The position numbers and the translations under genes are program-made. A DNA stretch of 22,141 bases from positions 1 through 22,141 of the IMG/VR virus record IMGVR_UViG_3300013253_000004. One strand, given 5' to 3'. The stretch comes from a virus. Within the stretch, counting starts at the first letter, position 1. Every line of letters begins with the position of its first letter. The notes under the pieces were generated by a model, which was not told the origin of the DNA, ran no database searches, and saw nothing but the letters and a program-made list of their open reading frames with translations. Below, piece after piece: positions 81 through 22,126 of the stretch.

Positions 81-728
81 TTAAAGACTTCTCAAGAAAG
101 CCGCAAACGCGGAAATCTTTCTCTCTTGAAGTTCCATGGGGTTTGGCGCGGAATCAAGGGCATCCTTGATAGCATCGAATTGAGACTCTTTGAGTCTGCC
201 ATCGACCATAACCCACTCACGTCCCTCATAAATGCCTTCAACGAAAGCATCTGGGGCAGAAGGATCTGCTACGATATCCGCAGCAGTGGCAAGCATGAAG
301 TCATCACCGACAACGTTGGTGGCACCTTCGCGCTTGATTGAACCGAGACCTCTAGAAGAGACTCCCAGTTGTACACCTTCGTCCAAAAGGGACTGGGCAA
401 TCTTACCCATTGGTGTATCGAGCAGCTTTGCTTTACCGATGAAGTTTGTACCTTCTGGTACAAGTTCAACGATCTTGTGACTTACTCTGTCAAGATTGAT
501 AGTCGGACCCTCGGGATGACCGAGTTCACCAAGAGCTCTGCCACGGTTGATAAAAGACTCCGTGTACTTATCGACTTCACGCTTCATGGTGCTGTACTTG
601 TACATGCGACCATTACGGTTAGTCATCTCAGTTTGGAGAAAGATACCCTTGATAAAGGTATTCTTTTTACCATCAGATTCTTCGTGGAGAATCTCAATGG
701 ATTCAATCTCTTCCGTGATCAGTTTCAT
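81..728 (-). CDS. 21: Prohead core protease gp21
   Basis: A 215-residue protein matching the T4 gp21 family of prohead maturation proteases (herpesvirus-assemblin-like fold). In the prohead this enzyme cleaves scaffold and capsid proteins before DNA packaging. Visible signatures are the GHPEG motif with the likely catalytic His71, the LGVSSRG motif with the nucleophile at Ser124 or Ser125, and a downstream acidic stretch DIVADPSAPDAF (Asp151/Asp155). The reading frame stays open upstream to 884, but the residues before Met53 are basic and unlike the family. An AGAGGAA ribosome-binding site (736-742) lies before the ATG at 728, so that start was chosen. The gene overlaps the preceding small acidic gene by 26 nt. 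Length agrees with T4 gp21 (about 212 residues). Confidence 0.93.
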   Translation of the reverse strand: MKLITEEIESIEILHEESDGKKNTFIKGIFLQTEMTNRNGRMYKYSTMKREVDKYTESFINRGRALGELGHPEGPTINLDRVSHKIVELVPEGTNFIGKAKLLDTPMGKIAQSLLDEGVQLGVSSRGLGSIKREGATNVVGDDFMLATAADIVADPSAPDAFVEGIYEGREWVMVDGRLKESQFDAIKDALDSAPNPMELQERKISAFAAFLRSL

Positions 729-969
729 CAGTAGTTTCCTCTGGTTCTTGTTCAGTTTCGACTTCATCCTCTGCGGATGCCTCAGGTGTTTCCACCTCAG
801 GTTCACCGTCCTCAGGTACATGCGGGAACATTGCCTGAGCAATGTCTTGCTTAGATGCGTCAACTGCCATAGCAGCTTTAACATTTAGCATGTCCTTCAA
901 TTTGGACAGCGCGTCAGCCTGGTCGTTGTTCCAAAGCAAATCAACGATGTCTCGTTCTTGTGTTGACAT
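703..969 (-). CDS. Small acidic protein between portal and protease; prohead-core candidate (gp67-like position)
   Basis: An 88-residue protein. Residues 1-45 look helical, with alternating leucines and charges (DLLWNNDQADALSKLKDML) followed by an Ala/Lys/Asp segment ending in AQAMF. Residues 46-88 are very acidic and disordered, rich in Glu, Pro and Thr. T4 carries small acidic prohead-core proteins (gp67, gp68) between genes 20 and 21, and this gene has the same place, size range and composition. By analogy it would sit inside the prohead and be cleaved by gp21. No catalytic or binding motif is visible. The start lacks a clear ribosome-binding site but follows an AATAAATA late-promoter match. 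The function is inferred from synteny and composition only. Confidence 0.7.
   Translation of the reverse strand: MSTQERDIVDLLWNNDQADALSKLKDMLNVKAAMAVDASKQDIAQAMFPHVPEDGEPEVETPEASAEDEVETEQEPEETTDETDHGRD
736..742 (-). promoter_or_regulatory. Shine-Dalgarno site that fixes the gp21 start
   Basis: AGAGGAA on the minus strand, 7 nt before the ATG at 728. It lies inside the end of the small acidic gene and supports an internal start, giving a 215-residue gp21 rather than the 267-residue open frame. Confidence 0.7.
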
Positions 970-5258: not shown

Positions 5259-5266
5259 GCGTGGTA

Positions 5267-5271
5267 CTCCT
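5267..5271 (-). promoter_or_regulatory. Shine-Dalgarno site AGGAG of gp18
   Basis: AGGAG on the minus strand, 8 nt before the gp18 ATG. It is among the clearest ribosome-binding sites in the window, in keeping with the high copy number of sheath subunits. Confidence 0.75.
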
Positions 5272-5298
5272 GATGAAAGATTTCAATTTGTCTAATAT

Positions 5299-5305
5299 TA
5301 TTTAG
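5299..5305 (-). promoter_or_regulatory. CTAAATA late-promoter variant before gp18
   Basis: CTAAATA on the minus strand, 41 nt upstream of the gp18 start, in the 61-nt gap after gp17. It lies in an imperfect palindrome, TCTAA/TTAGA with a six-base centre (5291-5306). Confidence 0.6.
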
Positions 5306-5319
5306 AAAAACTCGTCTTT

Positions 5320-9900: not shown

Positions 9901-10145
9901 AGTCTAAGAAGCGCACCACCCGTAGTGGTTACAGCGCGGATATCATATTCAGTACCGATGGAACTAGCACCACCACCAACGTCAAAGTTTCTGACAACAC
10001 CGTCCGTGCCCTTCAGCTTCATGGTCAGAACAGTGTTCGATGTTGCTTCGAGAACAACATCACCGTTCTGAGAAGGGGTTACGGTAGTAGGGGGTCTGAG
10101 GAGATTTGGTGCCTCCTCGGGTAATCTGCGAATTGTCAGGGACAT
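6999..10145 (-). CDS. Tail-fibre-like virion protein with internal repeats
   Basis: A 1,048-residue protein rich in Thr, Ser, Asn, Gly and Asp, with the look of the large fibre-like proteins of marine T4-like phages. Residues 1-115 form a likely attachment end. Residues 118-150 carry the NDLTVTGNLDVQGTTTTINS motif, and 201-216 carry SSWDLGSATIRWANIYG, both typical of repetitive beta-structured fibres. Residues 227-533 contain two kinds of internal repeat: LTGNADTATTL...GVSFNGS (227-258, 349-380) and TDARARAAVS...GDGSLAYDSGTG (271-323, 447-494, 495-533). The C-terminal 150 residues differ in composition (aromatic and His-rich), as in receptor-binding tips. A CTAAATA motif lies 29 nt upstream. 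Role in host contact is inferred from composition and family look; no chaperone or lectin signature is seen. Confidence 0.8.
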   Translation of the reverse strand: MSLTIRRLPEEAPNLLRPPTTVTPSQNGDVVLEATSNTVLTMKLKGTDGVVRNFDVGGGASSIGTEYDIRAVTTTGGALLRLTSSYSVLDDVKFAGTANQITVAYTNDNEMTFSLPNDVTIGNDLTVTGNLDVQGTTTTINSTTVQVDDITIELGTVATPTDATANGGGIVLKGATDKLITWSNTNDAWTFNQHVYPSADSSWDLGSATIRWANIYGDAANITSITGALTGNADTATTLETARDISGVSFNGSQNITLVTDNVQESGTPTNIYFTDARARAAVSVTDSGGDGSLAYDSGTGVITYTGPSATEVRAHLSAGTGVGFSGGVISIGQAVGTSDSVQFAGITGPLTGNADTATTLQTARTINGVSFNGSADITLDLDDIAEASVTPTNLFYTNERVDDRVSVLLQGGTGITKSYNDGADSLTLSVDFSEFDTDDVNEGTTNIYFTDARARAAVSAVDSGGDGSFAYDSSTGAFTYTGPSAAEVRAHVSVSDVGGDGSLAYDSGTGIFTFTGSSPAETRVHFSGGTGVTYDSVAGEFSIGQDVATNASVNFAAGTFSGADTRALILNNTDNTGTVNSAGQIAFRHTGIDFTNNTIIADGNDLGHIEFRNNGGSTVGQFGWRKRGVAASKLSFEVDTDNSGTPNFEVNDNYISFASTNINVTGTLEVNAQTSGITYADNGANVGPDFILQRDTTSVANNDLIGRFLFNSQDSTYSNDVSYAGILAEAELVSAGSERGRLFLQCSDGGALVNTMTLKGKLVGLGIDEPAGQFHVKGNDTTDQIIIENETNSSTTAPDLVLYKSGTIGVGHQPGRIDFRGRNGLNNANVTYSAIISEVEGTSNLSEGGAIKFFTTQSGTLTEAARINSAGNFKLQAEKGIDFSNQTALGGATYEVLDHYEEGSYAATPYFANTNRAGMSTNSTGYYTKVGRMVHVHAKMIVNIIDNTLIGGELRLPLPFEPAISCADNAIMRVIMENDSGHFLNTAQTQFLDDSRDMIISHKGSQDQWVVLQGLNADYQRGSIITSSNCAIGLGTIFLDFTYRASS
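8547..8663 (-). repeat. Tail-fibre repeat unit, copy 3 (shortened)
   Basis: Encodes residues 495-533 (GGDGSLAYDSGTG, FTGSSPAETRVHFSGGTGV). It lacks the TDARARAA part of the other copies, so it is a partial tandem duplicate. Confidence 0.7.
8664..8807 (-). repeat. Tail-fibre repeat unit, copy 2
   Basis: Encodes residues 447-494, with NIYFTDARARAAVSAVDSGG identical or nearly so to copy 1. It is directly followed by copy 3, which makes a tandem pair. Confidence 0.8.
9067..9097 (-). repeat. 31-bp exact direct repeat, copy B
   Basis: Second copy of the 31-base repeat at 9433-9463. Recombination between the copies would delete an in-frame 366-bp segment (122 codons) of the fibre gene. Confidence 0.85.
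9177..9335 (-). repeat. Tail-fibre repeat unit, copy 1
   Basis: Encodes residues 271-323 (TDARARAAVS...SLAYDSGTG...TYTGPSATEVRAH). Related units follow at 8664-8807 and 8547-8663. Copy 1 and copy 2 share the DARARAAVS and TYTGPSA.EVRAH segments almost exactly, pointing to duplication within the gene. Confidence 0.8.
9433..9463 (-). repeat. 31-bp exact direct repeat, copy A (pair at 9067-9097)
   Basis: A 31-base stretch encoding LTGNADTATT occurs identically at 9433-9463 and 9067-9097, 366 bp apart on the same strand. Identity at DNA level over synonymous sites suggests recent duplication or gene conversion. Confidence 0.85.
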
Positions 10146-10399
10146 TACTGAGAGGCAGTCTGTTTTCTATGTGTATTTAGCTTCAACCAATCCGCGCAGG
10201 TATCGAAGTCATCGAAAAACACTGTGCGTCCATCGAAGCAGGTATAAAATTTGTTCAGGTAAGAGTCGTAAGAAATCCAATCTTCGACGTCATCCTTATG
10301 GTCTTCAGCGACTTGCTCGCGATACCATTGTGGGTTATCAATAATCTCATCTCTGAGATCTTCAATGATGTGTAGACGATCCTCTGGGACTTCACTCAT
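10145..10399 (-). CDS. Small acidic protein of unknown function
   Basis: An 84-residue protein not recognised as any family. It is acidic and rich in Asp, Glu, Tyr and Trp. The N-terminal half is helical in character (DRLHIIEDLRDEIIDNPQWY). The middle (YDSYLNKFYTCFDGRTVFFDDFDTCADWL) has alternating aromatic and acidic residues and two cysteines. The last ten residues are polar and basic. There is no signal peptide or membrane segment. The stop overlaps the tail-fibre start by one base (TAATG). An AAGG ribosome-binding site and a CTAAATA motif (26 nt) precede it. It lies in the variable cassette between the two terminase genes. Confidence 0.8.
   Translation of the reverse strand: MSEVPEDRLHIIEDLRDEIIDNPQWYREQVAEDHKDDVEDWISYDSYLNKFYTCFDGRTVFFDDFDTCADWLKLNTHRKQTASQ
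10174..10180 (-). promoter_or_regulatory. CTAAATA late-promoter variant before the tail fibre
   Basis: CTAAATA on the minus strand, 29 nt upstream of the tail-fibre start and inside the 3' end of the 84-residue gene. A promoter here would allow fibre expression independent of the small-gene cassette. Confidence 0.55.
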
Positions 10400-10424
10400 A
10401 AGACAAACCTTATGTACATGTCTA

Positions 10425-10431
10425 TATTTAG
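10425..10431 (-). promoter_or_regulatory. CTAAATA late-promoter variant before the 84-residue gene
   Basis: CTAAATA on the minus strand, 26 nt upstream of the start at 10399. It overlaps the stop codon of the zinc-ribbon-like gene. Confidence 0.55.
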
Positions 10432-10670
10432 TCCTGTTCTTCTAGGTCTGTAATTCTTTCAGATCTTTTTGCCCAGGTATCACCACCATCCATACCTCTC
10501 GATGGATTGATACACTGCTCATCACCAAAGTCATTACATACTAATCCAGCGAGATCAAGCTCACTGGTATCAGAGGTATTTCCTGTACGCCAATAATGCT
10601 TACCGTTTACCCAGGTAGCACCACACTTATTACAAATCTTTGTGCTCAATGTCTCGGAGGAACTCTCCAT
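10428..10670 (-). CDS. Small zinc-ribbon-like protein of unknown function
   Basis: An 80-residue protein with a likely zinc site: CNKCG (Cys13, Cys16) and a later pair Cys45 and Cys53 in LVCNDFGDEQC. The first pair is a typical zinc knuckle. The wider seven-residue gap in the second pair is unusual, so metal binding is probable but not certain. WVNGKHYWRTGNTSDTSELDLAGLVCN resembles small rubredoxin-like or zinc-ribbon proteins that read or bind other macromolecules. Its start is nested 41 nt inside the preceding membrane-protein gene, with a GGAG ribosome-binding site (10678-10681) inside that gene. No partner or reaction can be named. Confidence 0.8.
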   Translation of the reverse strand: MESSSETLSTKICNKCGATWVNGKHYWRTGNTSDTSELDLAGLVCNDFGDEQCINPSRGMDGGDTWAKRSERITDLEEQD

Positions 10671-10863
10671 AATCTTTCTCCATCTGTTTCTTGAGAACTT
10701 TTAATTGTCGTTCTAGTTTCTTTCTTAAAAAATAAGATCGAATCTTGACAACTCCATATCTAAGCTCCAAGTCAATATACTGGAACAACCGTATAGTCTC
10801 ATCAAATCCTGCGAACAGGAAAAGGGCGAGAACAATAACGATTATATAAAGACTAGCTTCCAT
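10630..10863 (-). CDS. Small single-pass membrane protein with coiled-coil tail
   Basis: A 77-residue protein. Residues 5-20 (LYIIVIVLALFLFAGF) form one clear membrane segment right after the start. The rest is basic and helical, with RKKLERQLKVLKKQMEKD looking like a coiled coil. The orientation is probably N-out with the tail in the cytoplasm, judged by the positive charges after the segment. The frame can be extended to a TTG at 10878, but the ATG at 10863 is preferred. That ATG overlaps the upstream gene by 11 nt. The function is unknown. Small phage membrane proteins of this form include lysis regulators (holin or spanin-like) and superinfection factors, but no family signature supports either role. 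Confidence 0.75.
   Translation of the reverse strand: MEASLYIIVIVLALFLFAGFDETIRLFQYIDLELRYGVVKIRSYFLRKKLERQLKVLKKQMEKDYGEFLRDIEHKDL
10678..10681 (-). promoter_or_regulatory. Shine-Dalgarno site GGAG of the zinc-ribbon-like gene
   Basis: GGAG followed by AAAG on the minus strand, 7 nt before the ATG at 10670. It lies within the upstream membrane-protein gene and supports the nested start. Confidence 0.6.
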
Positions 10864-11089
10864 AAGAGTAGGATTCAAACGCTAAGAACGCAGGTACATC
10901 CTTGATCTTCTCTGTCTCCAGATAAGAAATGATGCGACAACCTGGATATATCTTAGACGCTTGAGTCTGAATGTCAACTCTTTGGGGTTTGTTGAGCTTA
11001 GGGAAAAATAGCTGGACGCGGTACATCCGCCCACGCCAGACAAGCTCAACGTGATAATACTTGCCGTACTCGTTAAGACGCGCTGCCAT
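10853..11089 (-). CDS. Small basic protein of unknown function
   Basis: A 78-residue protein, basic in its first half (ARLNEYGKYYHVELVWRGRMYRVQLFFPKL). It appears to be an alpha/beta fold with strands YYHVELVW and MYRVQLFF and a short helix before CRIISYLE. No known motif was recognised. The TGATG overlap with the upstream structural gene implies translational coupling. It belongs to the small-gene cassette between the terminase subunits and probably is expressed late. A structural or assembly role is possible from context only. Confidence 0.75.
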   Translation of the reverse strand: MAARLNEYGKYYHVELVWRGRMYRVQLFFPKLNKPQRVDIQTQASKIYPGCRIISYLETEKIKDVPAFLAFESYSYGS

Positions 11090-11634
11090 CAGGCGACCAT
11101 CGCGCTAACTTCTGTACAGTGAACGTCAGAACCGTTACTACCATCAGGATAGACAGCATACTTAACGGAGTTTCTTAATTCGGCAGTGCCAGTGAAAGCA
11201 GCGAAAGAAGAACCATCAACGTTCAGTGAGATAGTGCTAGGGGTTACAGCGCTAACAGTTGCGTGAGTAACATTGTAATCACCAACAGCAGCACCACTAA
11301 CAGTTACAGCATCGCCAACACGAAACTCGTTATGTACACCACCTTCTCTAGCAAGGGTGGCAACGATCGGGTTAGCAGCAGTAGCAGCAGTGATCAATTC
11401 TCTTCTAGGAGCTTCATGCTTAACCAGAACAGACTCACCTGCGGTAACATGAAGACCACCAGTGCTAGCATCAGGGTTAGCACCGAGAGCGATCTGACAT
11501 GAGTCCTTACCAGATGCTACCGAAAAGCGGTAGATGCCAGTAGCGACTGTCATTGCGCCAGACAGTGTGTTTGCTTGACTGTTCACACTAACAGTAGGTC
11601 TGTAAGCAGCAGCCTTAAGAATAGGACCAGACAT
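11089..11634 (-). CDS. Probable virion structural protein, beta-rich
   Basis: A 181-residue protein rich in Ala, Val, Ser, Thr and Gly with few charged residues, as in head-decoration or tail accessory proteins. Residues 1-80 include SGAMTVATGIYRFSVASGKDSCQIALG and a TAGESVLVKHE strand. Residues 98-150 (FRVGDAVTVSGAAVGDYNVTHATVSAV...ISLNVDG) look like a small beta-barrel with the VGD turn seen in several phage structural proteins. It starts 27 nt after an AATAAATA late-promoter match at the end of gp16 and overlaps the next gene by one base. The exact place in the virion cannot be told from sequence. Confidence 0.7.
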   Translation of the reverse strand: MSGPILKAAAYRPTVSVNSQANTLSGAMTVATGIYRFSVASGKDSCQIALGANPDASTGGLHVTAGESVLVKHEAPRRELITAATAANPIVATLAREGGVHNEFRVGDAVTVSGAAVGDYNVTHATVSAVTPSTISLNVDGSSFAAFTGTAELRNSVKYAVYPDGSNGSDVHCTEVSAMVA

Positions 11635-11659
11635 AATTTTTTAGTAAGTTTTCCCTGTC

Positions 11660-12064
11660 TTATTTATTCTTGGAAGCATCCTTCAGCATCTTCTGTAGAT
11701 CTGCTGTGCTTCCAACGAACAATGCGTTTGTGACGTTAGTAGGTCCACGCTTGGACTCTTCCTTGACGTCTTTTGTTTTCTTTTGGAGATCCATCAGTTT
11801 ATCTGTGGTATCTGCCACGTGCTTGATCAACTGACCAGCAACTTCATATGCTCTTGGATGATCGGATGACATAGCAACATCGAGCGCACCGCTGATAGCT
11901 TCTTGTCCTTTCTCAATCAGATTGTAGAGTTGTGCTCTACTGTACTCATGGTCATCGTCAACCTGATCCTTCACCTTTGGTGGTGGGGCAGGTTTGCTAG
12001 GTTCGACCTTTGAGATTTCACTCACAGTCTCGAACGCTTCGTCTAGTCCGTCAAACTTATCCAT
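11660..12064 (-). CDS. 16: Small terminase subunit gp16
   Basis: A 134-residue protein recognisable as the T4-like small terminase (T4 gp16 164 residues). It forms a ring that recognises DNA and regulates the gp17 motor. The N-terminal 40 residues are acidic and Pro-rich (PSKPAPPPK) and probably disordered. The central helical core (about residues 41-97: YSRAQLYNLIEKGQEAISGAL, SSDHPRAYEVAGQLIKHVADTTDKLMDLQKK) is the oligomerising coiled coil of the family. The tail ends in a short helix (TADLQKMLKDA) likely to contact gp17. It overlaps gp15 by 8 nt, so it is probably translated by coupling; no ribosome-binding site is seen. The partner gp17 lies about 4.7 kb away, after six inserted genes. 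Confidence 0.9.
   Translation of the reverse strand: MDKFDGLDEAFETVSEISKVEPSKPAPPPKVKDQVDDDHEYSRAQLYNLIEKGQEAISGALDVAMSSDHPRAYEVAGQLIKHVADTTDKLMDLQKKTKDVKEESKRGPTNVTNALFVGSTADLQKMLKDASKNK
11661..11668 (-). promoter_or_regulatory. Late promoter match AATAAATA
   Basis: AATAAATA (NATAAATA form) on the minus strand, 27 nt upstream of the 181-residue gene. It overlaps the gp16 stop codon. It would start late transcription of the cassette between gp16 and gp17. Confidence 0.55.
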
Positions 12065-13067
12065 AGAAAGATGTCATCTCATTGAATCCAAAGTCATCGC
12101 CGCTATCGAGCAGAGCGTCATCGCTAGCATTGACGATATCGATTACAGAACCAGCAGCATGATCCGACTTCGTAGTAGAATTAGCACCACGGGTTACTGT
12201 GATACTTGTAGCATCAGGCTTGGTCTTAACCTTCATGACCTCATTGTTGATCTCGATGAGGTCACCAATACTGAAGACTGTGCTGTCAGTAACTTCTAGA
12301 GTAGCAAAGCGCTTGTCTATATCTTTGGTAAGGTTGAGACCTGATCCATCGGCATCCTGATCTCTGAGTGCTTTTGGTGTAACCTGATACTGTACTCTGC
12401 GTGGAGCAACTTCGCGATTGACACCAGTCTTGTAATCGACCTTTGCTTTTTTGATAGGAGCACCAGTCTGAGAAGGACCGAATACATATGTCTTCATAGT
12501 GAAAGACATATCTACTGTAGTTAGTCTTCTCTGAGTGAAGTCTCCTTCGTAGTCATCGGTATAGTTGATAGTATTCATGACGATGGGAACGTCACGATAC
12601 TCTTTGAGTGCTTCCACAATGTTTACCGTCACGTTGTAAGACGGTTGGAAGAACGGCATGATCTGCTCAGCAATCTCTAGAGCTTCGTCATTCGTCTTCG
12701 AGAGAATAGAAAGCGAGAACTCTAGATTGTAAGGTACAGGAGTGTACATCTTACGAACAGCATTGTTGCCATCTGCCTTGAGTTCCAAGGTAACAGGACT
12801 GAGTTTTCTAGTGGCATCATAAGAGATACCAGTCAACTCAAATGCGATACGTGGCAGAGTGATGGCAACTTTCTTGTTCAGCTCAGGTTGCTGCTCAAGT
12901 CTTGCCAAGAACTTCTGCTTAGGTCCATACGCCAAAGGCACCTTCATTTTACTGTAGGTGCTACCATCTGAGTTCTCGCGTCGAACTTCGATATTGTTAA
13001 AGATCGTGCCGAAAGCGATAACGCATTTACGGATTACTTTATTGTATGTGTACCCAGTGTTTAACAT
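12057..13067 (-). CDS. 15: Tail completion / sheath stabilizer protein gp15, with C-terminal extension
   Basis: A 336-residue protein of the gp15 family (T4 272 residues), which caps the finished tail and joins it to the neck. Residues 1-200 carry the family core: FGTIFNNIEVRR, KVPLAYGPKQKFLARLEQ, ITLPRIAFELTGISYD, YTPVPYNLEFSLSI, and QRRLTTVDMSFTMKTYVFGP. Residues 253-313 form an extra domain (FATLEVTDSTVFSIGDLIEINNEVMKV, ITVTRGANST) resembling small beta domains found in other phage structural proteins. That domain accounts for the greater length. It starts one base after the gp14 stop and runs 8 nt into gp16. A GATAAATA match 84 nt upstream may add transcription. Confidence 0.93.
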   Translation of the reverse strand: MLNTGYTYNKVIRKCVIAFGTIFNNIEVRRENSDGSTYSKMKVPLAYGPKQKFLARLEQQPELNKKVAITLPRIAFELTGISYDATRKLSPVTLELKADGNNAVRKMYTPVPYNLEFSLSILSKTNDEALEIAEQIMPFFQPSYNVTVNIVEALKEYRDVPIVMNTINYTDDYEGDFTQRRLTTVDMSFTMKTYVFGPSQTGAPIKKAKVDYKTGVNREVAPRRVQYQVTPKALRDQDADGSGLNLTKDIDKRFATLEVTDSTVFSIGDLIEINNEVMKVKTKPDATSITVTRGANSTTKSDHAAGSVIDIVNASDDALLDSGDDFGFNEMTSFYG

Positions 13068-13068
13068 T

Positions 13069-14400
13069 TTATGTCGCTATACCAAATGGATTGGACTCAG
13101 TGAAGTCTAGAATGTCGTCTGCTTCAGTTTCAAACTCAACATTGTCATAATATTTATCATCCGTAGAGTCAATAGGATCAAAACTATGTATAGTTACGGT
13201 TGCTCCACTGGTAGAACCCATCAACAATTCTCCAACTAGGAAGTCTCCTGTTGGATTCTTAAGCTTCAACCATCCTTCTCCATCGTTCCAATCAGCAAGC
13301 ATAGCAGTATTGCTAGTGCTACCCCCAGTAACAGACTCGCCATCTTTGAAAGTACCTTGTAATCCAGCAGGAACAGTTTCAATATCAAGAGATGCTGTAG
13401 TGTATCCAGAACCAGGACTGGTCACTACAAGTTTTTCTACTTGTGTATATCCAGAACCCTCATTAGAGATTTCAACCTTTGTGAGACTTCCGTTAGAATC
13501 GAAAGTAGGTATAACCGACGGACTGTTGCCACCGAATGGAGGGTCGGTAAATTGAATATAGGATCTTGTAGCATCGTATCCCTGTCCACCATCTACAATA
13601 GTAAGTTTGTTTAGTTTACCTTGTACAATAGATGGTACAAGAACTGCGGGTTTGACTGGTGTAGATCCACCAACCGAAACACCGATCATATCAGCACGAA
13701 CTGTAGCACCGTTGCCATCACCATTTACAGTGACATTAGGGGTAAAGTTATAACTTTTTCCGTTAGTAGTTACGATAGCTTGGTCCACAGTACCACTGTC
13801 AAGGCTAACAGTACCAGCAGCAGATGTACCGCTAGAGGTAAGATAGTAGTATTTGACAGTGTATCCTGTATCAATGAGTTCCTCGTCTCCCTCAAAGATG
13901 TCTCCTTGTTCGTCGGAGTATTCAAAGAGCTCACACTTGAGTTTGTATGTGTAGTTCTTTCCGAGTTGGTAGAATGGTTCTTCATGCTCAACGTACTTGA
14001 TCTCAAAGTAGTTTGCTGTCAGTGGGAACCAGATAAGGTCACCCTCCTGAGGACGTTCTCCAATCTCAACTTCTTTGTCTTCTAGAAGGAACTGAGCGAT
14101 AAGGTCAGAGAATCTCTGCTGTGATATGACCAATGTTACTTCATCTGACTGACGAATGCCGAACTTTGTCAGTAGATCACCACCACCTTGGAACCCATCA
14201 AAGTTCTCCATGTACGCTTCAATGAGATAAGAGTCATCAAACTCGGAGATGATCTCTTCATTAAATACGCCATCCTTCCTCACAAGCTGCCTGGGGATGT
14301 ATAACACATCCATACCAAACATCTTGATATACTCTTCAACCAGACCTTGCTGAAGGAACTGTTCGTTGCGAGTGCCGTGAGTAAAGAAAACGTTTCTCAT
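13069..14400 (-). CDS. 14: Neck protein gp14 with a large internal insertion
   Basis: A 443-residue version of the neck protein gp14 (T4 256 residues), which with gp13 closes the filled head and forms the tail-binding site. Residues 1-180 match the family (MRNVFFTHGTRNEQFLQQGL, VEEYIKMFGMDVLYIPR, DLIWFPLTANYFEIKYVEHEEPFYQLGK). So does the C terminus, residues 417-443 (YYDNVEFETEADDILDFTESNPFG). Between them about 235 residues are inserted. The insert is rich in Gly, Ser, Thr and Val, with three GxGY turns (GGQGYDAT near 271, EGSGYTQV near 314, PGSGYTTA near 330) that suggest a beta-solenoid or beta-sandwich. The start overlaps gp13 by four bases (ATGA). The insert is probably exposed on the neck, as a collar or whisker-like decoration; this is inference. 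Confidence 0.92.
   Translation of the reverse strand: MRNVFFTHGTRNEQFLQQGLVEEYIKMFGMDVLYIPRQLVRKDGVFNEEIISEFDDSYLIEAYMENFDGFQGGGDLLTKFGIRQSDEVTLVISQQRFSDLIAQFLLEDKEVEIGERPQEGDLIWFPLTANYFEIKYVEHEEPFYQLGKNYTYKLKCELFEYSDEQGDIFEGDEELIDTGYTVKYYYLTSSGTSAAGTVSLDSGTVDQAIVTTNGKSYNFTPNVTVNGDGNGATVRADMIGVSVGGSTPVKPAVLVPSIVQGKLNKLTIVDGGQGYDATRSYIQFTDPPFGGNSPSVIPTFDSNGSLTKVEISNEGSGYTQVEKLVVTSPGSGYTTASLDIETVPAGLQGTFKDGESVTGGSTSNTAMLADWNDGEGWLKLKNPTGDFLVGELLMGSTSGATVTIHSFDPIDSTDDKYYDNVEFETEADDILDFTESNPFGIAT
13151..13158 (-). promoter_or_regulatory. Possible intragenic late promoter GATAAATA upstream of gp15
   Basis: GATAAATA on the minus strand within the 3' end of gp14, 84 nt before the gp15 start. It fits NATAAATA but is farther from a start codon than the other matches, so it may be a chance hit. 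Confidence 0.3.
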
Positions 14401-15191
14401 CCGATCATGTCAAGCGGTGGGATTTCGTACATATCAATCATCGAGTCCTCAAGTTTCTGGACTTCGTTATTACCATCTTCATACAACTCTCTACCATTGA
14501 GAGTGATACCACCAGGTAGCTGAGCACCTTGGAACTTAATGAGGTTCTGTCCCCACTGTCTCTTAAGCAGCGCAGTAGTATATCTCTTCAACCAGGGATC
14601 GTTATAGACACCAGCATAATCAGAAGGATCTATTGCTCTGTAGCAATCAAAGATAATGTAATCGCCGTCAAGTACATCAGACTTAAAGTCCAGATCCATA
14701 TACAGACGGTTGCCTCTCAGATTATATCTGATCTGCTTTTGTCCTTCCAGCAGGAAGTAGATATCTTCCAATCTACGGTTGACCATTTCATAGGTCAAGA
14801 TCTCAGTCTGTGTAAGATCCCACAGATCATTGAGTCTCCACTGGTAGCGGACATCAAAAAGGTTTGTAGTGTTCTTCGACGTGAAGTCAAAGATCTTGAT
14901 CACAGAGATGATGTGATCAGGTACAGTAATATAGTTGTTCTGAGTTTCAAAAGTTTTGCCACCTACAGTCTCTGAGGTGTCAGTCGTCATCGCATCGATG
15001 GTAGTCTGATCAAACTGGAACTTCAGGAATGTCCTGATGTATCCGTCCATGTGACGCTCATTGTAATACTGAATGGCGTCATCGACGAGATCATCAATCT
15101 GATCATCGTCAACATTGATCTCCAGCACAGGAGCGCCAAGCTTCCTGAGGGAGTAATCAATAAGTTGTTCTCGTGTTGCTGGTTTTGCCAT
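14397..15191 (-). CDS. 13: Neck protein gp13
   Basis: A 264-residue protein of the gp13 family (T4 309 residues). It binds the portal after packaging and, with gp14, seals the head. Recognised features are the N terminus (ATREQLIDYSLRKLGAPVLEINVDDDQIDDLVDDAIQYYNE) and the aromatic-rich middle (YITVPDHIISVIKIFDF, LYMDLDFKSDVLDGDYIIFDCYRAIDP). The C-terminal KFQGAQLPGGITLNGRELY segment is also typical. The N-terminal half is strongly acidic. It overlaps the giant protease gene by one base (TAATG) and gp14 by four, so the three are probably translated as a coupled unit. Weak ribosome-binding sites agree with coupling. Confidence 0.95.
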   Translation of the reverse strand: MAKPATREQLIDYSLRKLGAPVLEINVDDDQIDDLVDDAIQYYNERHMDGYIRTFLKFQFDQTTIDAMTTDTSETVGGKTFETQNNYITVPDHIISVIKIFDFTSKNTTNLFDVRYQWRLNDLWDLTQTEILTYEMVNRRLEDIYFLLEGQKQIRYNLRGNRLYMDLDFKSDVLDGDYIIFDCYRAIDPSDYAGVYNDPWLKRYTTALLKRQWGQNLIKFQGAQLPGGITLNGRELYEDGNNEVQKLEDSMIDMYEIPPLDMIG

Positions 15192-18100
15192 TAGATTGTA
15201 TCAACGTTGAATCTCACGCGGACATAATATGTAGTTGTAGGTAACGTGGTAACGTCACCTGGCAGGGTGTAAGAAACTAAGTTGGTAGAGTTTCCGAGTG
15301 ACTGGTGCTCCACATCAGTGAAAGTATTAGTTCTAGAGAACTGCCAGTCAGAAGATACATGCCCATAACCACTCTTAATTGCTGGTGACAATACAGAGAT
15401 AGTTGGGTTGAAAGCAGGTGTAATAACCTGAATCTCAGGTTGATCTACTACAGGAGTAGTGAACTGTACTGGTGTTGAGTAGTTAGAAGTCAGATCATTC
15501 TGGTCTTTGAACTTAACCTGTACACTATAAGTTGTATCAAAATCTAGAGTACCTGCTGGTACAGTGAATGTAGTCAGATTGTTAGGATCACCAGCAGACA
15601 AGTCAGGAACTGTGATGGTGCTAGTATCATATACAACAGTGTTGTCAGATACTTTCTTGATCAACCAGAAAGACTTGGCGTGAGTAGATCCAGCATACTG
15701 AGATACAAAGGCAGATGATGTAGCAGTAGGTTGTCTGTTGAATGCCAAACCAGTATCAGTATCAGTATTGACATTCATTGAAGTCGGAGCTTCAACAAAC
15801 TCAGACTCATTAACTGTCAAAGTAGCAGCGTCAGACGTTACCGAGATAGCGTTAGAGTTGCTAAGTACACAGCGATACTGCCTACCCACTGTTGGGAATG
15901 GCATGTTCGGTGTTTGATATGAAGCGTTTGTTGCTCCACCAATGTTACCCCAGTTTCCACCATTGTCAGTAGACAGTTGCCACTGATAGTTCAGAGTGCC
16001 ACTGGTTATAGCAGCAGTAATATTATATGTTGCTCTGTTACCCTCAATGATTGTTTGTGGTTGGGGTTGAACTGAGATGGTGATGACTCTGTTGACAGTC
16101 AGTTCAGCATAAGAAGATGTCAGAGGAGCCTGAGCACCAACCAAAGACAGAACGCAACGATAACGATCAGCATTATCATCAACATACACCAGAGTAGGTG
16201 TGGTGTAACTAGCATTTGTAGCACCACCAACAGGTGTGTAGTTTGCTACGTTGGTAGATTCTGCCTTCTCCCACTGGTAAGTATGTGTGCCACTGGAAGT
16301 AGTTCCAGCAACAGTAAACGTAGCAGTACCACCCTCATTTCCAATCTGGTTAGAAGGTTGAGTGCTAACAGTATGAGTTCTGTATACAGTTAGGAGTGCT
16401 GCTCCAGTGTATACTTCAGTATCAGCACCAACAGCATCGATCTTACAACGATAACGATCATCATGATCATTGGCATAAGTTAGTGCTGGAGTAGTGTAAG
16501 AACTAGATGTAGCACCACCAATATCTGACCAGCTACCTCCCTGATTATCAGATCTCTGCCACTGGAATGTTACTGATGGTGTGTGGTCTGAGAGGATTTG
16601 TTCAAATAGACGTTGTTGTTCAGGGTCATCAAATTGATTGCCCTGCTGTGGAGTGATCCAAGAGCTAATACCGAAGGAGCTATGAATAGCGCCAGTGATA
16701 CCAGAGTTCTGAGCTGTACCATTACATGTAAATGTCGCAGTTCCTAATTCATCCGCTGTTTGGTCTGTAGGATCTAAAGTTACAGAGACTTGTACAGTCT
16801 CTACCTGTAAGACCGCTGCGTTTGAAATTACATTAGCAGCACCAGGGGCAGAAACAAATACACGATACTGATACTCATCCATCGAAGCGGTGAGTGTTGG
16901 AGTCGTGTAGTCAGCAGATGTAGCACCGCCGATGTTTGACCAACTGGTTCCATCGTCGATAGATTGTTGCCACTGGAATGTAACGTCACTGTTGTCTCCG
17001 TCAGAGAGACTAGCAGCTACAGTGAAAGTTCTTGTTCCACCTACAGAACCTGTCTGGTCTGTTGGTTGCGTATTGATAGTAACCGTTCTAGTAACAGTCA
17101 GAATTACTGTTGTAGATTCTACAGCAGCAGCTCCGACAGCTGTCAGAGAGCACTTGAGACGGTCATCGTTATCAAAGTTAGTTCCAGTAATTCCATCGCC
17201 ACTATCGTAGGTGGTTGCCGATGTTGTATAGGCAGGTGATGTAGCACCCGAAATAGTACCAAATGTGGAAGGAGCTGAACCATCTGCTTTACTCCATTGA
17301 TAGTTTGGAACAGTTCCATCTACAATAGCAGCAACCAGAGTGAATGTGGCAGCAGCAGGAGCAACTACACTTTGACTACTCGGTTGTGATGAGATTCTAA
17401 TAACTCTGAATACCGTAAGAGTTACCGCATTCGTTACAGCATCTAGTGGCGCTGTTGATGAACCACATACACAGCGATATTGGTAATCGTTATATCCATA
17501 GTTACCAACAACTGTCAGAGTATCAGTAGTCTCTCCGCTATGATCGGCAAGACCAGAGATGTCTGCCCAGTTGGAACCACCATCTGTACTAAATTGCCAC
17601 TGGAAAGTTACCGTAGAACTGTCAGATGTTGTAGCAGTTACAGGTCCAAATGTTGCGTTACCTGTACCAGCTTCAATGTTAGCATCTGAGGGTTGACCTG
17701 TGATGTTAACAAGAACACCAGTTCCGTTGGTATCAAAACTATATGCTTGAGATTCACCTGTAGTCAGTTCAGTGACTGTAATATTATAAGTTGTGTCATT
17801 ATAGCTGGAAGTTACGGTACCAGTCAGAACACCAGTAGATGTGCTGAATGTAAGTCCACTACCAGAAAGACTGCTACCACTAAGACTATATGATCTACCA
17901 GAGAAGTTTTCGTTGGCATAGGATACAACAGTGTTGATGCCCAACTGGAGGTTTACATTTTCTCCATTGTCAAAACCATCGCCGCCACTACTAATATCAC
18001 CAGCAGCTCTATGCCAGGTAATAGTTTTTGGAATGAATGGTGTGAAAGCACCACGAACCTTAGACTTAACTGATGGATATGTGAGGTGTTGGAAGTCTAC

Positions 18101-20695
18101 ACCAGTGTCAACAGGGATTTGTCTGATTGCTCTACCACTGTGAGTAGATTCTTCACTATCAAGTTCAGCGTACAGAGCTACACTACCATACGTAGGACCA
18201 TCAGTCTCTTCATGGGTATCAGAAATGATACACATGTAGCAGTTATCTCCACCGCCACCTGAAGAAGTACCAGTAGCAGCGTTGGTTACTTGGAATGTGA
18301 CTGTATTGTTGGCAGCATCCTGTGCTGTGATGTCTTGCCAAACAGCAGTAGCATCAACTAGGTTAACACCACCAACACTATTGTCTGGGTTCTGGACATA
18401 GATAGCACCCTCCATATTGGGGTGAGCAGAGCACTGATAATAGTAAGTGCCTACAGGAACATTAGTTGTGTCCCAGATAATATCACCAGATGTAGCACCC
18501 TGGTTGGTTACGCCTGTATTATAAGCGTTGTTTGTACCAGAAGAACCCTGAGTGTCTTTGATATAGAACGGGTGAGCGTTCAGCTGATTGTCAAAGGTGA
18601 TGGTGTCACCTTTATTAATATAGATGGCAGGATCATCTGTACTAGAAGTAGTACCATTTCTATCGGTACCATTCATAGTATAGTGCTGGGAAGAGGGAGC
18701 ACCAGTAATATCCCAACTATATGATGCGGCAGTAGTTTGAAGAGTTCCAAGTCTAAGCTGAATCTTCTTACCAATGTTGTTCAGGAAGACTGAGGAATCT
18801 GATGCCTCAAACTTGACTTTGATATCTCTACTAGCTGCTGTAGTGATAAAAGGATTGCTAGGGAGTTTATACTCAATAGCAGTATTGGTAGGATAACCTT
18901 CGTGACTTGTAGCACTGAACGTACCAACAGAACCAGACTGTCTGATAAAGTTCTTAGACAGTTGTGTAAGGTTAGAAGTTCCGAGGTTGTAGTTGTTATT
19001 GGCAACCCACTGGGTCATGATACCAGCAACAACAGGACCAGAGAATGAGGTACCTGAAATGTTTACGTAGTTACCAGTGCTAGTGTATGGAGTGTTAGCA
19101 GTCCAGTCATATGCTGGAACGGTGAGGTGCTGACCAGGAGCAACTGTAGTACAAGCAGAACCATAGTTAGAGAAGTCTGCCCAACGGTCATTATAGTCAG
19201 AAGCACCAACAACAATAGAGTTGATGTTGACATCTACAGTGTTGACATCTCCATCACTGTATCCTGAGGATCTGGCACCAGCAACAAATCTAGTTTGGAG
19301 AGGTCCAAGGAAGTTGTTACTAGAGTTCTTGAATCCATTACCAGCAGATCTAACAAGAATGATATTGTTATCTACAACTTCTTTCTCGGTCTCGTCATAG
19401 AGTTCAACGTCAAAACCAGAATCAGCTCCTGGTTCGTTGAGTTCAACGTATGGGAAAGATCCACTAGGCTGTGTAGGACCAAACGATGCGTTGATGACAG
19501 CAGGTCTAGTATTACCTTTGTAGTTTGCGTTACCTGAATCATTGTGATCAATGACTGCCTGGTAAGCATTCATGATACCTGAAAGAGATCCGCTACCAGC
19601 AGAAGAGAAGCACTTCAGTGCGTAGAACTTCGCTTGTCTAGCGAGACCAGTTTTGATACCACCAATGATATTGGCACACTGCGTACCGTGACCATTATCA
19701 TCTTCATTACTGTTCGATTCGCTGCCAACAGTATATCCAGAGTTATATCCTGTTACTTCATAGACTCTGTATGCCTGCTGTTCAGACAAACCATTAAGGT
19801 CAGTTACATTATCATATGAGTAAAGCTCAGGGTGAAGACCTGCGTTGTTACCAGTAGGACGACTAGCACCTCTGATGCCAGTATCCAGAACGTAGACGTC
19901 TACACCGTCGCCTTCTTCATTTGTATTGTAAGATCCGTTCATGAAAGAACGGTTCTGCTTTGTAATTCTGTCAAGATACCAGAAGTCATGAACGCACAGC
20001 TTACCAAATCTGGAAGGTGTGTCGTTATAGTCTCCGTATCTTTCGTAGTTTGCGTTGTACCAATACAGTATAGACGGAGTTGTAGCACTGATTGTAATAC
20101 GTGTATAGGCACCAGACTGACCAGGTGTGCCGTTAACAGTTACATCGGATGTGTATGCTACACCACCACCGAATGTTCCGTCAGGAGTCAGAGAGAATCT
20201 GAACGGGTGACCAGCGTTAGAGGAGTCGGACTGATCAAAAGTATATGTACCACCTTGTAGGAATCCACTGTATGTGCTGATCCTACTGTATGAACCACCC
20301 TGAGTATTTGAAATTACAAACCTGTCACCAGCAGTAAACGTCTGAACTTTTACGTATAGAGTACCACCACCTGAGGTTGTCAGGATACGAGTATTCTTTA
20401 CTTCATCTACTTCAGAAGATACTTCCGTAATCGTATCACCAGAGAACTCTACGTTCTGTACACCTTCTTCTGTAACTGGTTGGAGATGAAACTCCTTGTC
20501 ATACGTTGCCCCAGCAACAATATCCATGCCGCGAATAGCATCAATCTGAGATTGATCTTTATCTTCGCAGGTGAACTGTAGGGTTTTGAATGATCTAAAA
20601 GATCTTACGAACTCTAAATAAGTATGCTGACCAAGAATTGTACTCTTAGCATCATCCAGATCTGGAGTAGTGACCTTAACTAACAGGGTTGCCAT
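15191..20695 (-). CDS. Giant subtilisin-like protease with copper-site cupredoxin domain and Ig-like array
   Basis: A 1,834-residue multidomain protein. Residues 1-75 resemble a protease prodomain. Residues 108-222 form a cupredoxin-like domain that keeps His163 but lacks the Cys/His/Met loop. Residues 262-595 are a subtilase with an intact triad: Asp271 (VLDTGI), His336 (NGHGTQCA) and Ser550 (SGTSFSGP), plus oxyanion Asn453 (SAGN). Residues 655-770 are a second cupredoxin domain with all type 1 copper ligands: His708 (AHPF), Cys755, His758 and Met761 (CSAHPNM). A cadherin-like stretch (about 920-990) and six Ig-like domains (997-1628) follow, most with TFQWQ-type and YRC-type strands. Two FnIII-like segments end the protein. 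There is no signal peptide. It is coupled to gp13 (TAATG) and starts 34 nt after a TATAAATA late promoter, so it is probably a virion protein. The substrate is unknown. Confidence 0.9.
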   Translation of the reverse strand: MATLLVKVTTPDLDDAKSTILGQHTYLEFVRSFRSFKTLQFTCEDKDQSQIDAIRGMDIVAGATYDKEFHLQPVTEEGVQNVEFSGDTITEVSSEVDEVKNTRILTTSGGGTLYVKVQTFTAGDRFVISNTQGGSYSRISTYSGFLQGGTYTFDQSDSSNAGHPFRFSLTPDGTFGGGVAYTSDVTVNGTPGQSGAYTRITISATTPSILYWYNANYERYGDYNDTPSRFGKLCVHDFWYLDRITKQNRSFMNGSYNTNEEGDGVDVYVLDTGIRGASRPTGNNAGLHPELYSYDNVTDLNGLSEQQAYRVYEVTGYNSGYTVGSESNSNEDDNGHGTQCANIIGGIKTGLARQAKFYALKCFSSAGSGSLSGIMNAYQAVIDHNDSGNANYKGNTRPAVINASFGPTQPSGSFPYVELNEPGADSGFDVELYDETEKEVVDNNIILVRSAGNGFKNSSNNFLGPLQTRFVAGARSSGYSDGDVNTVDVNINSIVVGASDYNDRWADFSNYGSACTTVAPGQHLTVPAYDWTANTPYTSTGNYVNISGTSFSGPVVAGIMTQWVANNNYNLGTSNLTQLSKNFIRQSGSVGTFSATSHEGYPTNTAIEYKLPSNPFITTAASRDIKVKFEASDSSVFLNNIGKKIQLRLGTLQTTAASYSWDITGAPSSQHYTMNGTDRNGTTSSTDDPAIYINKGDTITFDNQLNAHPFYIKDTQGSSGTNNAYNTGVTNQGATSGDIIWDTTNVPVGTYYYQCSAHPNMEGAIYVQNPDNSVGGVNLVDATAVWQDITAQDAANNTVTFQVTNAATGTSSGGGGDNCYMCIISDTHEETDGPTYGSVALYAELDSEESTHSGRAIRQIPVDTGVDFQHLTYPSVKSKVRGAFTPFIPKTITWHRAAGDISSGGDGFDNGENVNLQLGINTVVSYANENFSGRSYSLSGSSLSGSGLTFSTSTGVLTGTVTSSYNDTTYNITVTELTTGESQAYSFDTNGTGVLVNITGQPSDANIEAGTGNATFGPVTATTSDSSTVTFQWQFSTDGGSNWADISGLADHSGETTDTLTVVGNYGYNDYQYRCVCGSSTAPLDAVTNAVTLTVFRVIRISSQPSSQSVVAPAAATFTLVAAIVDGTVPNYQWSKADGSAPSTFGTISGATSPAYTTSATTYDSGDGITGTNFDNDDRLKCSLTAVGAAAVESTTVILTVTRTVTINTQPTDQTGSVGGTRTFTVAASLSDGDNSDVTFQWQQSIDDGTSWSNIGGATSADYTTPTLTASMDEYQYRVFVSAPGAANVISNAAVLQVETVQVSVTLDPTDQTADELGTATFTCNGTAQNSGITGAIHSSFGISSWITPQQGNQFDDPEQQRLFEQILSDHTPSVTFQWQRSDNQGGSWSDIGGATSSSYTTPALTYANDHDDRYRCKIDAVGADTEVYTGAALLTVYRTHTVSTQPSNQIGNEGGTATFTVAGTTSSGTHTYQWEKAESTNVANYTPVGGATNASYTTPTLVYVDDNADRYRCVLSLVGAQAPLTSSYAELTVNRVITISVQPQPQTIIEGNRATYNITAAITSGTLNYQWQLSTDNGGNWGNIGGATNASYQTPNMPFPTVGRQYRCVLSNSNAISVTSDAATLTVNESEFVEAPTSMNVNTDTDTGLAFNRQPTATSSAFVSQYAGSTHAKSFWLIKKVSDNTVVYDTSTITVPDLSAGDPNNLTTFTVPAGTLDFDTTYSVQVKFKDQNDLTSNYSTPVQFTTPVVDQPEIQVITPAFNPTISVLSPAIKSGYGHVSSDWQFSRTNTFTDVEHQSLGNSTNLVSYTLPGDVTTLPTTTYYVRVRFNVDTI
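15812..17707 (-). repeat. Array of six Ig-like domain repeats within the giant protein
   Basis: Residues 997-1628. Approximate units are 997-1095, 1096-1201, 1202-1299, 1300-1437, 1438-1536 and 1537-1628. Recurrent features are a QP..Q opening, a Y/FQW strand, an IGGATSA.YTTP turn, a YRC strand and a final LTV. The units are diverged at DNA level. Unit four carries a roughly 40-residue insertion. Confidence 0.8.
18386..18733 (-). other. Cupredoxin domain with amicyanin-type copper ligand loop (domain of the giant protein)
   Basis: Residues 655-770. The strand ASYSWDITG opens the domain. INKGDTITFDNQLNAHPFYI places His708, and GTYYYQCSAHPNMEGAIYV places Cys755, His758 and Met761. The spacing Cys-x2-His-Pro-x-Met is that of amicyanin. 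All four ligands expected for a type 1 (blue) copper centre are present. Confidence 0.8.
20030..20374 (-). other. Degenerate cupredoxin-like domain (domain of the giant protein)
   Basis: Residues 108-222. GGTYTFDQSDSSNAGHPFRF and a later VTVNGTPGQSGAYTRITI parallel the cupredoxin pattern seen in marine phage proteins. The C-terminal ligand loop reads ILYWYNANYERYG, so the Cys, His and Met ligands are gone and copper binding is unlikely. Confidence 0.6.
20614..20620 (+). promoter_or_regulatory. Possible plus-strand late promoter CTAAATA
   Basis: The only CTAAATA noticed on the plus strand. It lies within the 5' end of the giant gene, 121 nt before the plus-strand ATG at 20742 (73 nt before the alternative ATG at 20694). 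The distance is longer than for the minus-strand motifs, and one hit is no more than chance predicts. Confidence 0.25.
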
Positions 20696-20728
20696 GTATT
20701 CGCAGCTGGTCAGTGTTATCCTCTTTTG

Positions 20729-20736
20729 TATTTATA
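20729..20736 (-). promoter_or_regulatory. T4-type late promoter TATAAATA
   Basis: Exact TATAAATA on the minus strand, 34 nt upstream of the giant protease gene. It lies in the 46-nt gap between that gene and the divergent plus-strand gene, and ends 5 nt before the ATG of the latter. It can drive the coupled run of the protease, gp13, gp14, gp15 and gp16. Confidence 0.75.
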
Positions 20737-20741
20737 CCCTA

Positions 20742-21029
20742 ATGTCGCTAAGAGATAGACAAGCTCCTGTAGGAGAATACAGAAACAGAGAGCACCTATA
20801 TTCTAGAATCATCGCACCTTTCGATGGTAACCCTGAGACTATCCCCCATGAAGTAGGTGGTCAGTATGAGGGTAGAACCATTCGCGCTATCGGTGTTACC
20901 AAAAACATTTACGGGCACAGGTACTATCTCATTGTTTCAGGAGATAAGACCCATGCCCGTAATAGATTTGAATTTGATGAGAAACATGATCTTATTTCAA
21001 CCAAGTTTCTCGGGTTAGAAGGAGATTAG
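20742..21029 (+). CDS. Lone plus-strand small protein of unknown function
   Basis: A 96-residue protein, the only gene on the plus strand. It is not recognised. It has a charged N terminus (SLRDRQAPVGEYRNREHLYSRIIAPFDGN), a middle GGQYEGRTIRAIGVTKNIYGHRYYLIVSGD of beta character, and a basic-then-acidic tail. It has no cysteine and no membrane segment from this start. No minus-strand frame covers this span, which favours a real gene. The ATG at 20742 has no ribosome-binding site. The in-frame ATG at 20694 would add 16 residues with a hydrophobic run (LVSVILFCIYTL) but would overlap the start of the giant gene. Its stop codon overlaps that of the convergent minus-strand gene. Opposite orientation suggests separate timing, perhaps early or middle. 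Confidence 0.7.
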   Translation: MSLRDRQAPVGEYRNREHLYSRIIAPFDGNPETIPHEVGGQYEGRTIRAIGVTKNIYGHRYYLIVSGDKTHARNRFEFDEKHDLISTKFLGLEGD

Positions 21030-21211
21030 TCTGCTACTACTTCGGCAGCAGGTTCAACTTCTTTCTCTGCCAAGCGGAGACCTTCGATAGCGCCTTGGAA
21101 GCGCAGGATCTGGTCTTCACGAGCTTTCAGTGCTTCTTTCAGCTCTGCCACTTCACTACGAACTTTAGACTGCTGTTCAGTAAAGTCCTTGATCATTTCT
21201 TCAATAGTCAT
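21026..21211 (-). CDS. Small coiled-coil protein of unknown function
   Basis: A 61-residue, highly charged, mostly helical protein. Residues 1-45 show heptad-like spacing of hydrophobics (IEEMIKDFTEQQSKVRSEVAELKEAL), which implies a coiled coil. The last residues are acidic and Ala/Val-rich. No family was recognised. An AGAGGA ribosome-binding site precedes the start, and the start overlaps the upstream stop by one base. Its stop overlaps that of the plus-strand gene. Composition is very like its upstream neighbour, so the two may be related or form a complex. Confidence 0.75.
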   Translation of the reverse strand: MTIEEMIKDFTEQQSKVRSEVAELKEALKAREDQILRFQGAIEGLRLAEKEVEPAAEVVAD

Positions 21212-21504
21212 TAGTCAGTCCTCTGGATACGAGATTCTTCTTTTAGAACTTGGGTGCGGATGATATCGATTGCTTCGCAAGCACCCTCAAGTTTGGTACA
21301 CTTATTGCGAGCATCGTTGAGATCAGTCAGGTCAAGACGAGTCATGAGACTTGCGTTCTTTTCAAGTTCATCCTCGCGCTCCTTTACCTCCAGACGTGCT
21401 GCGGTAAGTTGAGCAACGAAGTCTTCCCAGACATCCTCAAATTCAATTTCTTTTGTCTCGGTTTCTTCGAGACCCATCCCTGCGGATTCAGGTGCGTCAG
21501 ACAT
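21211..21504 (-). CDS. Acidic coiled-coil protein of unknown function
   Basis: A 97-residue acidic protein. Residues 1-25 are Glu-rich and probably disordered. Residues 26-90 look like one long helix (WEDFVAQLTAARLEVKEREDELEKNASLMTRLDL, then NARNKCTKLEGACEAIDII-like). It has two cysteines and no motif. It starts 8 nt inside the oxygenase gene and overlaps the 61-residue gene by one base, so the three genes form a coupled set. A role as an assembly factor or structural spacer is possible but unsupported. Confidence 0.75.
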   Translation of the reverse strand: MSDAPESAGMGLEETETKEIEFEDVWEDFVAQLTAARLEVKEREDELEKNASLMTRLDLTDLNDARNKCTKLEGACEAIDIIRTQVLKEESRIQRTD

Positions 21505-22126
21505 AGTTTTTCACTTCATCTTGGATGTGCTGTTCGCTCATGCTAAATGGTGTAGCAAGATACGGACGTGTGTCATACTTCAGGTCAGAGAACTCACCAT
21601 CAGCATAGACATACTGGAGGAATGCTTGTACATGCTCCTGACCAGTGTATTTGTTTCGCCAGTGTGGGATAGCGGCACCGCTATACACTACCATATCCCC
21701 AGGTTCCAAGTCAACTCTGAGTTCTTGCCCTTTCCATCGGAAGAACAGACCCCAGTCATCATCCTTTGCTAGGTTGACGCTACAAGCAATCTCAGAACTG
21801 CGGCGATCAGTGTGCTCAACGAGCTCACTTCCATTATTATATATCCTACCATAAGAATAGGTAGGATGGAGTTCCGCTTTCAAGATATGTTCGAGTCTAT
21901 CCTTGACGGCAAGACTCAAAGCCTCGAAGCAAAGGGGACCGTACCAAGAAAAGCATCCTGGTGCGGAAGGATCATTATAACCCTCATTACTGCCCATGGC
22001 AAGTAGGGAATCCCGCATGATACGGAACTCTCTGTATACGAAGTCCACCACGGGGTATGGAATAGCTTCTCGCCATACCTTAATGAGAGGGGATCTTGTA
22101 GTTTGCTCTGTCATAGGGTTGTCCAT
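21497..22126 (-). CDS. 2-oxoglutarate/Fe(II)-dependent oxygenase (prolyl-hydroxylase-like)
   Basis: A 209-residue enzyme of the 2OG/Fe(II) dioxygenase superfamily common in marine T4-like phages. It would use iron, O2 and 2-oxoglutarate to hydroxylate a protein or small molecule. The iron site shows as HxD (His105, Asp107 in VEHTDRRSSE) and a distal His155 (IPHWR). The double-stranded beta-helix strands are YSYGRIYNNGSELVEH, LFFRWKG, LEPGDMVVYSG and VQAFLQYVY. The start is supported by an AAGGAT ribosome-binding site (22132-22137). The next in-frame ATG, four codons later, has none. It overlaps the following coiled-coil gene by 8 nt. The substrate is unknown; a virion or host protein target such as a prolyl residue is speculation. 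The upstream context is outside the window. Confidence 0.85.
   Translation of the reverse strand: MDNPMTEQTTRSPLIKVWREAIPYPVVDFVYREFRIMRDSLLAMGSNEGYNDPSAPGCFSWYGPLCFEALSLAVKDRLEHILKAELHPTYSYGRIYNNGSELVEHTDRRSSEIACSVNLAKDDDWGLFFRWKGQELRVDLEPGDMVVYSGAAIPHWRNKYTGQEHVQAFLQYVYADGEFSDLKYDTRPYLATPFSMSEQHIQDEVKNYV

Follow-up and report, generated by a model that had tools for sequence, protein, structure and literature searches.

A predicted subtilase joined to cupredoxin-like and Ig-like domains beside the neck genes of a Eurybiavirus-like Prochlorococcus phage

Described relatives

Enzymes carried on phage particles mostly cut glycans or peptidoglycan, and phage Ig arrays commonly serve as decorations that promote adhesion. 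Most S8 enzymes with an I9 propeptide are found outside the cell. In T4, the whisker gene wac lies directly before gp13.

The protein described here is encoded in a window (the whole stretch of DNA analysed) of 22,141 nucleotides. It shares with proteinase K and pro-subtilisin (MEROPS S8A with I9) the catalytic triad, the oxyanion Asn and, by prediction, the fold and propeptide, but a cupredoxin separates its propeptide from the enzyme, no export signal is seen, and the gene appears to be a phage late gene. Tandem Ig domains are shared with Hoc and phage Ig decoration proteins (RB49 Hoc, 3SHS; 9ncf_S), whereas the present protein carries an enzyme and its C-terminal module is matched by sequence only within its own family.

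The closest relatives are found in cyanophages. In P-HM2 and MED4-213 (Eurybiavirus, T4-GC519 / PHROG 27200), the protein occupies the same site before gp13 with the same domain order; their cupredoxin 1 retains intact copper ligands, unlike that of the source phage. The "peptidase S8" of S-BM3 (WDS61281, 2,648 aa; L084, positions 5770-13716) shares S8 motifs, cupredoxins, Ig array and C-terminal module, but its cupredoxin lies inside the S8 domain, it has an additional YHYH domain, and its gene does not adjoin gp13. The S8-cupredoxin proteins of ACG-2014e and S-H9-1 (PHROG 9158) share the I9-like start, the S8 motifs and a C-terminal cupredoxin with full ligands; they differ in having about 670-690 aa, no Ig array and another locus beside structural genes. 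S-SCSM1 QFG06492 (L091, positions 4932-9167) likewise combines an I9-like start and S8 triad motifs with likely adhesion domains, although lectin-like repeats (by eye) are found where the source protein has Ig and cupredoxin domains. It is annotated as "baseplate wedge subunit (virion protein)", an annotation that conceals an S8 enzyme. The virion proteome of S-SCSM1 has been measured (PMC9602691), and the words "virion protein" are taken to mean detection in that proteome. S8 genes also adjoin baseplate or structural genes in S-CREM1, S-H38 and S-H9-1, the peptidase gene of S-CREM1 being located amid baseplate genes. Across these layouts, S8 enzymes with adhesion-type domains are thus a repeated feature of the tail and neck regions of cyanophages.

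An S8 peptidase was reported by Sullivan et al. 2010 (PMC3037559) among 70 genes common only to P-HM1 and P-HM2, under the name T4-GC518; the P-HM2 record gives T4-GC519 for the same gene. Because of this listing, the kind of protein is already known and the architecture is the new part. A preliminary description of the DNA had stated that no defined function was known for this architecture, which is right, with the addition that the peptidase itself was on record in 2010. Among publications on phage cupredoxins with proteases or tails and on cyanophage S8 peptidases, no study of the architecture was found, and the propeptide, cupredoxins, late promoter, single-cell host link and wide environmental spread are not described in the literature searched. 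The text of the P-HM2 expression paper does not name the gene.

Domain architecture

The gene is a single intact ORF of 1,834 aa with zero internal stops, in agreement with the one fused protein first proposed, and PHROG 27200 spans this protein end to end. Its features are:

15191..20695, minus strand: whole gene (I9 propeptide, cupredoxin 1, S8 subtilase, cupredoxin 2, Ig array, C-terminal module)
20480..20695, minus strand: I9-type inhibitor propeptide (beta-alpha-beta-beta-alpha-beta), residues 1-72
20018..20383, minus strand: cupredoxin-like domain 1, residues 105-226, putative copper ligands lost in the source phage
18881..20002, minus strand: S8 subtilase domain, proteinase K-like, residues 232-605
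19883..19885, minus strand: catalytic Asp271, invariant 61/61
19688..19690, minus strand: catalytic His336, invariant 61/61
19337..19339, minus strand: oxyanion-hole Asn453, invariant 61/61
19046..19048, minus strand: catalytic Ser550, invariant 61/61
18380..18733, minus strand: cupredoxin-like domain 2, residues 655-772, amicyanin-type ligand set
17726..17983, minus strand: beta-sandwich, putative Ig or cadherin type, residues 905-990, all-beta in AlphaFold2
15806..17716, minus strand: six Ig-like domains, residues 994-1630
15194..15805, minus strand: C-terminal module, FN3-like by eye, residues 1631-1834, a conserved block

The full Ser-His-Asp subtilase site with its oxyanion Asn, claimed from the first reading, is borne out. 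Pfam Peptidase_S8 matches residues 262-574 (E 8.8e-26, far past the cutoff), and the four residues are invariant among the 61 non-redundant full-length sequences compared, their codons varying synonymously only. Median dN/dS is lowest in the S8 domain (0.109, against 0.16-0.31 in the other five of six N-terminal regions), these medians being drawn from sequence pairs that are not independent. Judged from the sequences, the catalytic site is intact and under strong purifying selection.

An AlphaFold2 model of residues 1-790, built from 38 sequences, has a mean pLDDT of 67, which is moderate only. In it, residues 1-70 form an I9 beta-alpha-beta-beta-alpha-beta unit (pLDDT 77-91 in blocks), and cupredoxin 1 sits between this propeptide and the protease. 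The part comprising residues 1-603 aligns with unprocessed pro-subtilisin E (3whi_A; Z 28.0, rmsd 3.8, 326 residues aligned) and with further pro-subtilisins, so that structure prediction, proposed earlier as a check, returns a subtilase fold; the Foldseek list is headed by proteinase K-type enzymes. Membership of the S8A/I9 subtilases is indicated by the triad within S8 motifs, the oxyanion Asn, and the predicted subtilisin fold and N-terminal propeptide. The original domain list of subtilase, cupredoxins and Ig domains was correct but missed the I9 propeptide. Residue 262, first given as the protease boundary, is the start of the Pfam match and is too late, because the mature N-termini of subtilisin-type enzymes align near residues 232-239. 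The sequence shows no apparent signal peptide.

Both cupredoxin-like domains exist as described at the outset, with the correction that domain 1 is without its copper ligands in the source phage. There, His163 is kept, while Asn214, Tyr217 and Tyr220 replace Cys, His and Met, leaving incomplete a type 1 copper His-Cys-His-Met set that is intact in many relatives. The Cys and His are both present in 28 of 38 aligned relatives and both gone in the remaining 10, including the source phage. Domain 2 is an optional cassette within the family, and its ligands His708, Cys755, His758 and Met761 are invariant in all 21 members with a domain at this place. Its best PDB match is amicyanin (E 1e-3), with which it shares the spacing C-x2-H-x2-M; the Pfam Copper-bind match is sub-threshold (E 0.013). 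Domain 2 is thus a putative copper binder. A possible association of site 1 loss with the domain 2 cassette was rejected, since the counts (13/16 vs about 25/44) come from related sequences and are not taken as evidence. At least one Cys-His-Met type motif is kept in 58 of 61 proteins; the three members with neither (L003, L004 and L012) all belong to one lineage.

Each of the nine cyanophage records tested contained cupredoxin modules, often within proteins that lack S8, and domains like cupredoxin 1 were found in a "virion structural protein" of S-TIM5 and in tail-fibre and baseplate-connector proteins. By sequence comparison, the cupredoxin is a module in general use among the particle proteins of cyanophages. 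There are many such modules, and their role seems undescribed in the literature searched. Some reside in open frames of more than 4,000 aa.

Residues 900-1834 were modelled by AlphaFold2 as all-beta, with a mean pLDDT of 81 and values near 90 in the six Ig domains, which upholds the Ig-like array of the preliminary description. The fourth Ig domain has an insertion at about 1332-1370, and residues 905-990 would, from the model, belong to an Ig or cadherin family. PDB matches of the array model are proteins with Ig domains in tandem, including RB49 Hoc; the best sequence match is the phage Ig-like protein 9ncf_S, equal in length to protein bas63_0124 of E. coli phage JohannRWettstein. In a sequence search of 50,697 phage records, the C-terminal module was limited to P-HM1, P-HM2, MED4-213 and S-BM3. 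The conservation of these roughly 200 residues and their restriction to the family and S-BM3 fit an anchor, and the module may attach the protein to the particle.

Genomic setting and host

The window is a fragment of a T4-like marine phage, and the source phage is Eurybiavirus-like. Along the minus strand, small genes are followed by the protease-Ig gene, gp13, gp14, gp15, gp16, a DUF7243 protein, a 1,048-aa structural protein, gp17, gp18, tail tube, portal and prohead protease, the last three being named from their order and from comparison with P-HM2. This order matches the annotation of Prochlorococcus phage P-HM2 and places the protease-Ig gene in an operon together with genes for neck, sheath, terminase and portal proteins. 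The surrounding features are:

20729..20736, minus strand: T4-type late promoter TATAAATA, exact match, 33 nt before the ATG
14397..15191, minus strand: gp13 neck protein, its ATG overlapping the protease-Ig stop codon by one base
21026..21504, minus strand: two small upstream genes (97 and 61 aa), with homologs known in Sf-CH3
81..884, minus strand: prohead protease gene, adjoining the portal gene; the P-HM2 ortholog is annotated gp21

The motif NATAAATA occurs within 80 nt upstream of the start in 63 of 78 relatives, compared with 1% of random 80-mers, and in all carriers except one it begins 33 to 42 nt before the start. The exact promoter match and its conservation across the family point to late expression, as first supposed. 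The linkage to neck genes is equally firm: gp13 is the next gene in 65 of 66 relatives, with a one-base gap in most. In Sf-CH3, homologs of both small upstream genes directly precede gp13 and the protease gene is absent at this site. Since these homologs run straight into gp13, the protease is encoded by an accessory gene with a defined site.

A further small gene on the plus strand (window 20670-21029) overlaps with its 5' end the protease gene start and the late promoter. Each of the 67 relatives for which upstream sequence exists has a homolog; in the lineage of the window it runs opposite to the protease gene, and in some others both run the same way.

A megablast search of the protease-Ig gene against phage records gave zero matches, so that a search at the protein level was required. 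Full-length orthologs with 48-50% identity were found in P-HM1, P-HM2 and MED4-213, each of which was isolated on Prochlorococcus MED4. A scan of IMG/VR gave 128 stretches encoding relatives, and the family is common in ocean metagenomes. A relative with 65% identity is encoded on contig QCLS01000003.1 (189 kb) of a Prochlorococcus single-cell genome, together with a portal gene that is 85% identical. This contig belongs to a phage of the protease-Ig group, and the cell was apparently infected or had virus bound to it. The host is Prochlorococcus, given the orthologs in MED4 phages and the contig in the single-cell genome. Recent capture of the gene from the host was also considered and rejected: a genome scan, weak because it rested on short peptide patterns, gave close relatives only in the single-cell contig and in one marine MAG contig, the latter probably phage, the remaining matches being remote S8 proteins.

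Proposed role and neighbouring genes

The favoured reading, to which about an even chance is given, is a late zymogen protease on the virion surface, borne on an Ig stalk near the neck or tail and acting on host-surface proteins. The protease would be made late as a zymogen, with the I9 propeptide assisting folding and blocking the active site within the infected cell, and the enzyme would then cut off its own propeptide. The subtilase would be carried at the end of the six-Ig stalk, and the conserved C-terminal module would hold the protein to the particle, with neck, collar or upper tail the likeliest place from gene position, although adjacency to gp13 does not fix its place on the particle. 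During attachment or entry the protease may trim host-surface proteins, the Ig and cupredoxin modules holding or tuning it. Presence in the virion is likely, because of the gene position and because the annotation of a related cyanophage S8 protein places it in the virion; location, anchor, activation, substrate and copper binding are each put forward conditionally. No proteomics of any member of the family was found in the literature, and the S-CREM1 peptidase is not named in the main text describing that phage's virion proteome, in which only 14 proteins were detected.

Late expression and the adjacency to gp13, gp14 and gp15 would also suit a particle maturation protease that cuts neck, tail or fibre proteins at assembly and is placed by its Ig part, and a zymogen fits timed action in the cell. 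This is nevertheless unlikely: the phage retains a normal prohead protease gene, the similar neck operon of Sf-CH3 has no protease gene, which suggests that assembly is generally independent of it, and a six-Ig stalk would be superfluous. The late promoter and the mostly extracellular habit of S8/I9 enzymes agree as well with release at or after lysis, the enzyme breaking down host debris and surface proteins in which progeny would be caught; since no signal peptide is apparent, and the big adhesive array and the position among structural genes suggest a particle component, such a role is improbable.

A copper or redox device, with the cupredoxin beside the protease sensing or carrying copper and regulating activity or contact with the host, would account for the invariant ligands of cupredoxin 2, for the joint retention or loss of Cys and His in cupredoxin 1 and for the motif kept in nearly all members, and S8-cupredoxin fusions recur in ACG-2014e, in S-H9-1 and, within the S8 domain, in S-BM3. 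The lineage without either motif speaks against it, and because cupredoxins are widespread in cyanophage proteins, many of them without S8, the pairing may be functional or mere module shuffling; this explanation is considered unlikely. It is highly improbable that the protein is a decoration or adhesion factor whose protease fold acts mostly as a scaffold or binding domain. The adhesive habit of phage Ig arrays and the Ig and Hoc structure matches would fit it, but all 61 sequences keep the triad and oxyanion residues unchanged, and among the six N-terminal regions dN/dS is lowest in the S8 domain.

If the virion-surface protease were aimed at host-surface proteins, it would be unusual among particle-borne enzymes and would offer a handle on how these phages cope with the surface of a photosynthetic cell that ranks among the most abundant. 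A fuller version would have a self-activating virion subtilase, equipped with a functional blue-copper domain and mounted through its Ig stalk on the neck where T4 has whiskers, cut a Prochlorococcus surface protein and help to set host range; as a whole this is a bold proposal that is probably wrong. The role is directly testable, as the family is common in metagenomes and present in cultured Prochlorococcus MED4 phages. Identity with T4 fibritin (wac) was rejected: the gene place fits, but no long coiled coil with foldon is seen in the modelled parts (residues 1-790 and 900-1834, which are S8, cupredoxin and all-beta Ig).

Some neighbouring genes show features of their own. On the minus strand, gp14 (window 13069-14400) has a C-terminal extension at about residues 190-340 similar to modules of baseplate wedge and structural proteins, and gp15 (window 12057-13067) has a C-terminal addition similar to tail-fibre modules. 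The protein at window 21497-22126 (minus strand) bears the PHROG label ferrochelatase and had zero Pfam matches; its H-T-D ... H-W-R motifs resemble those of a 2OG-Fe(II) oxygenase.
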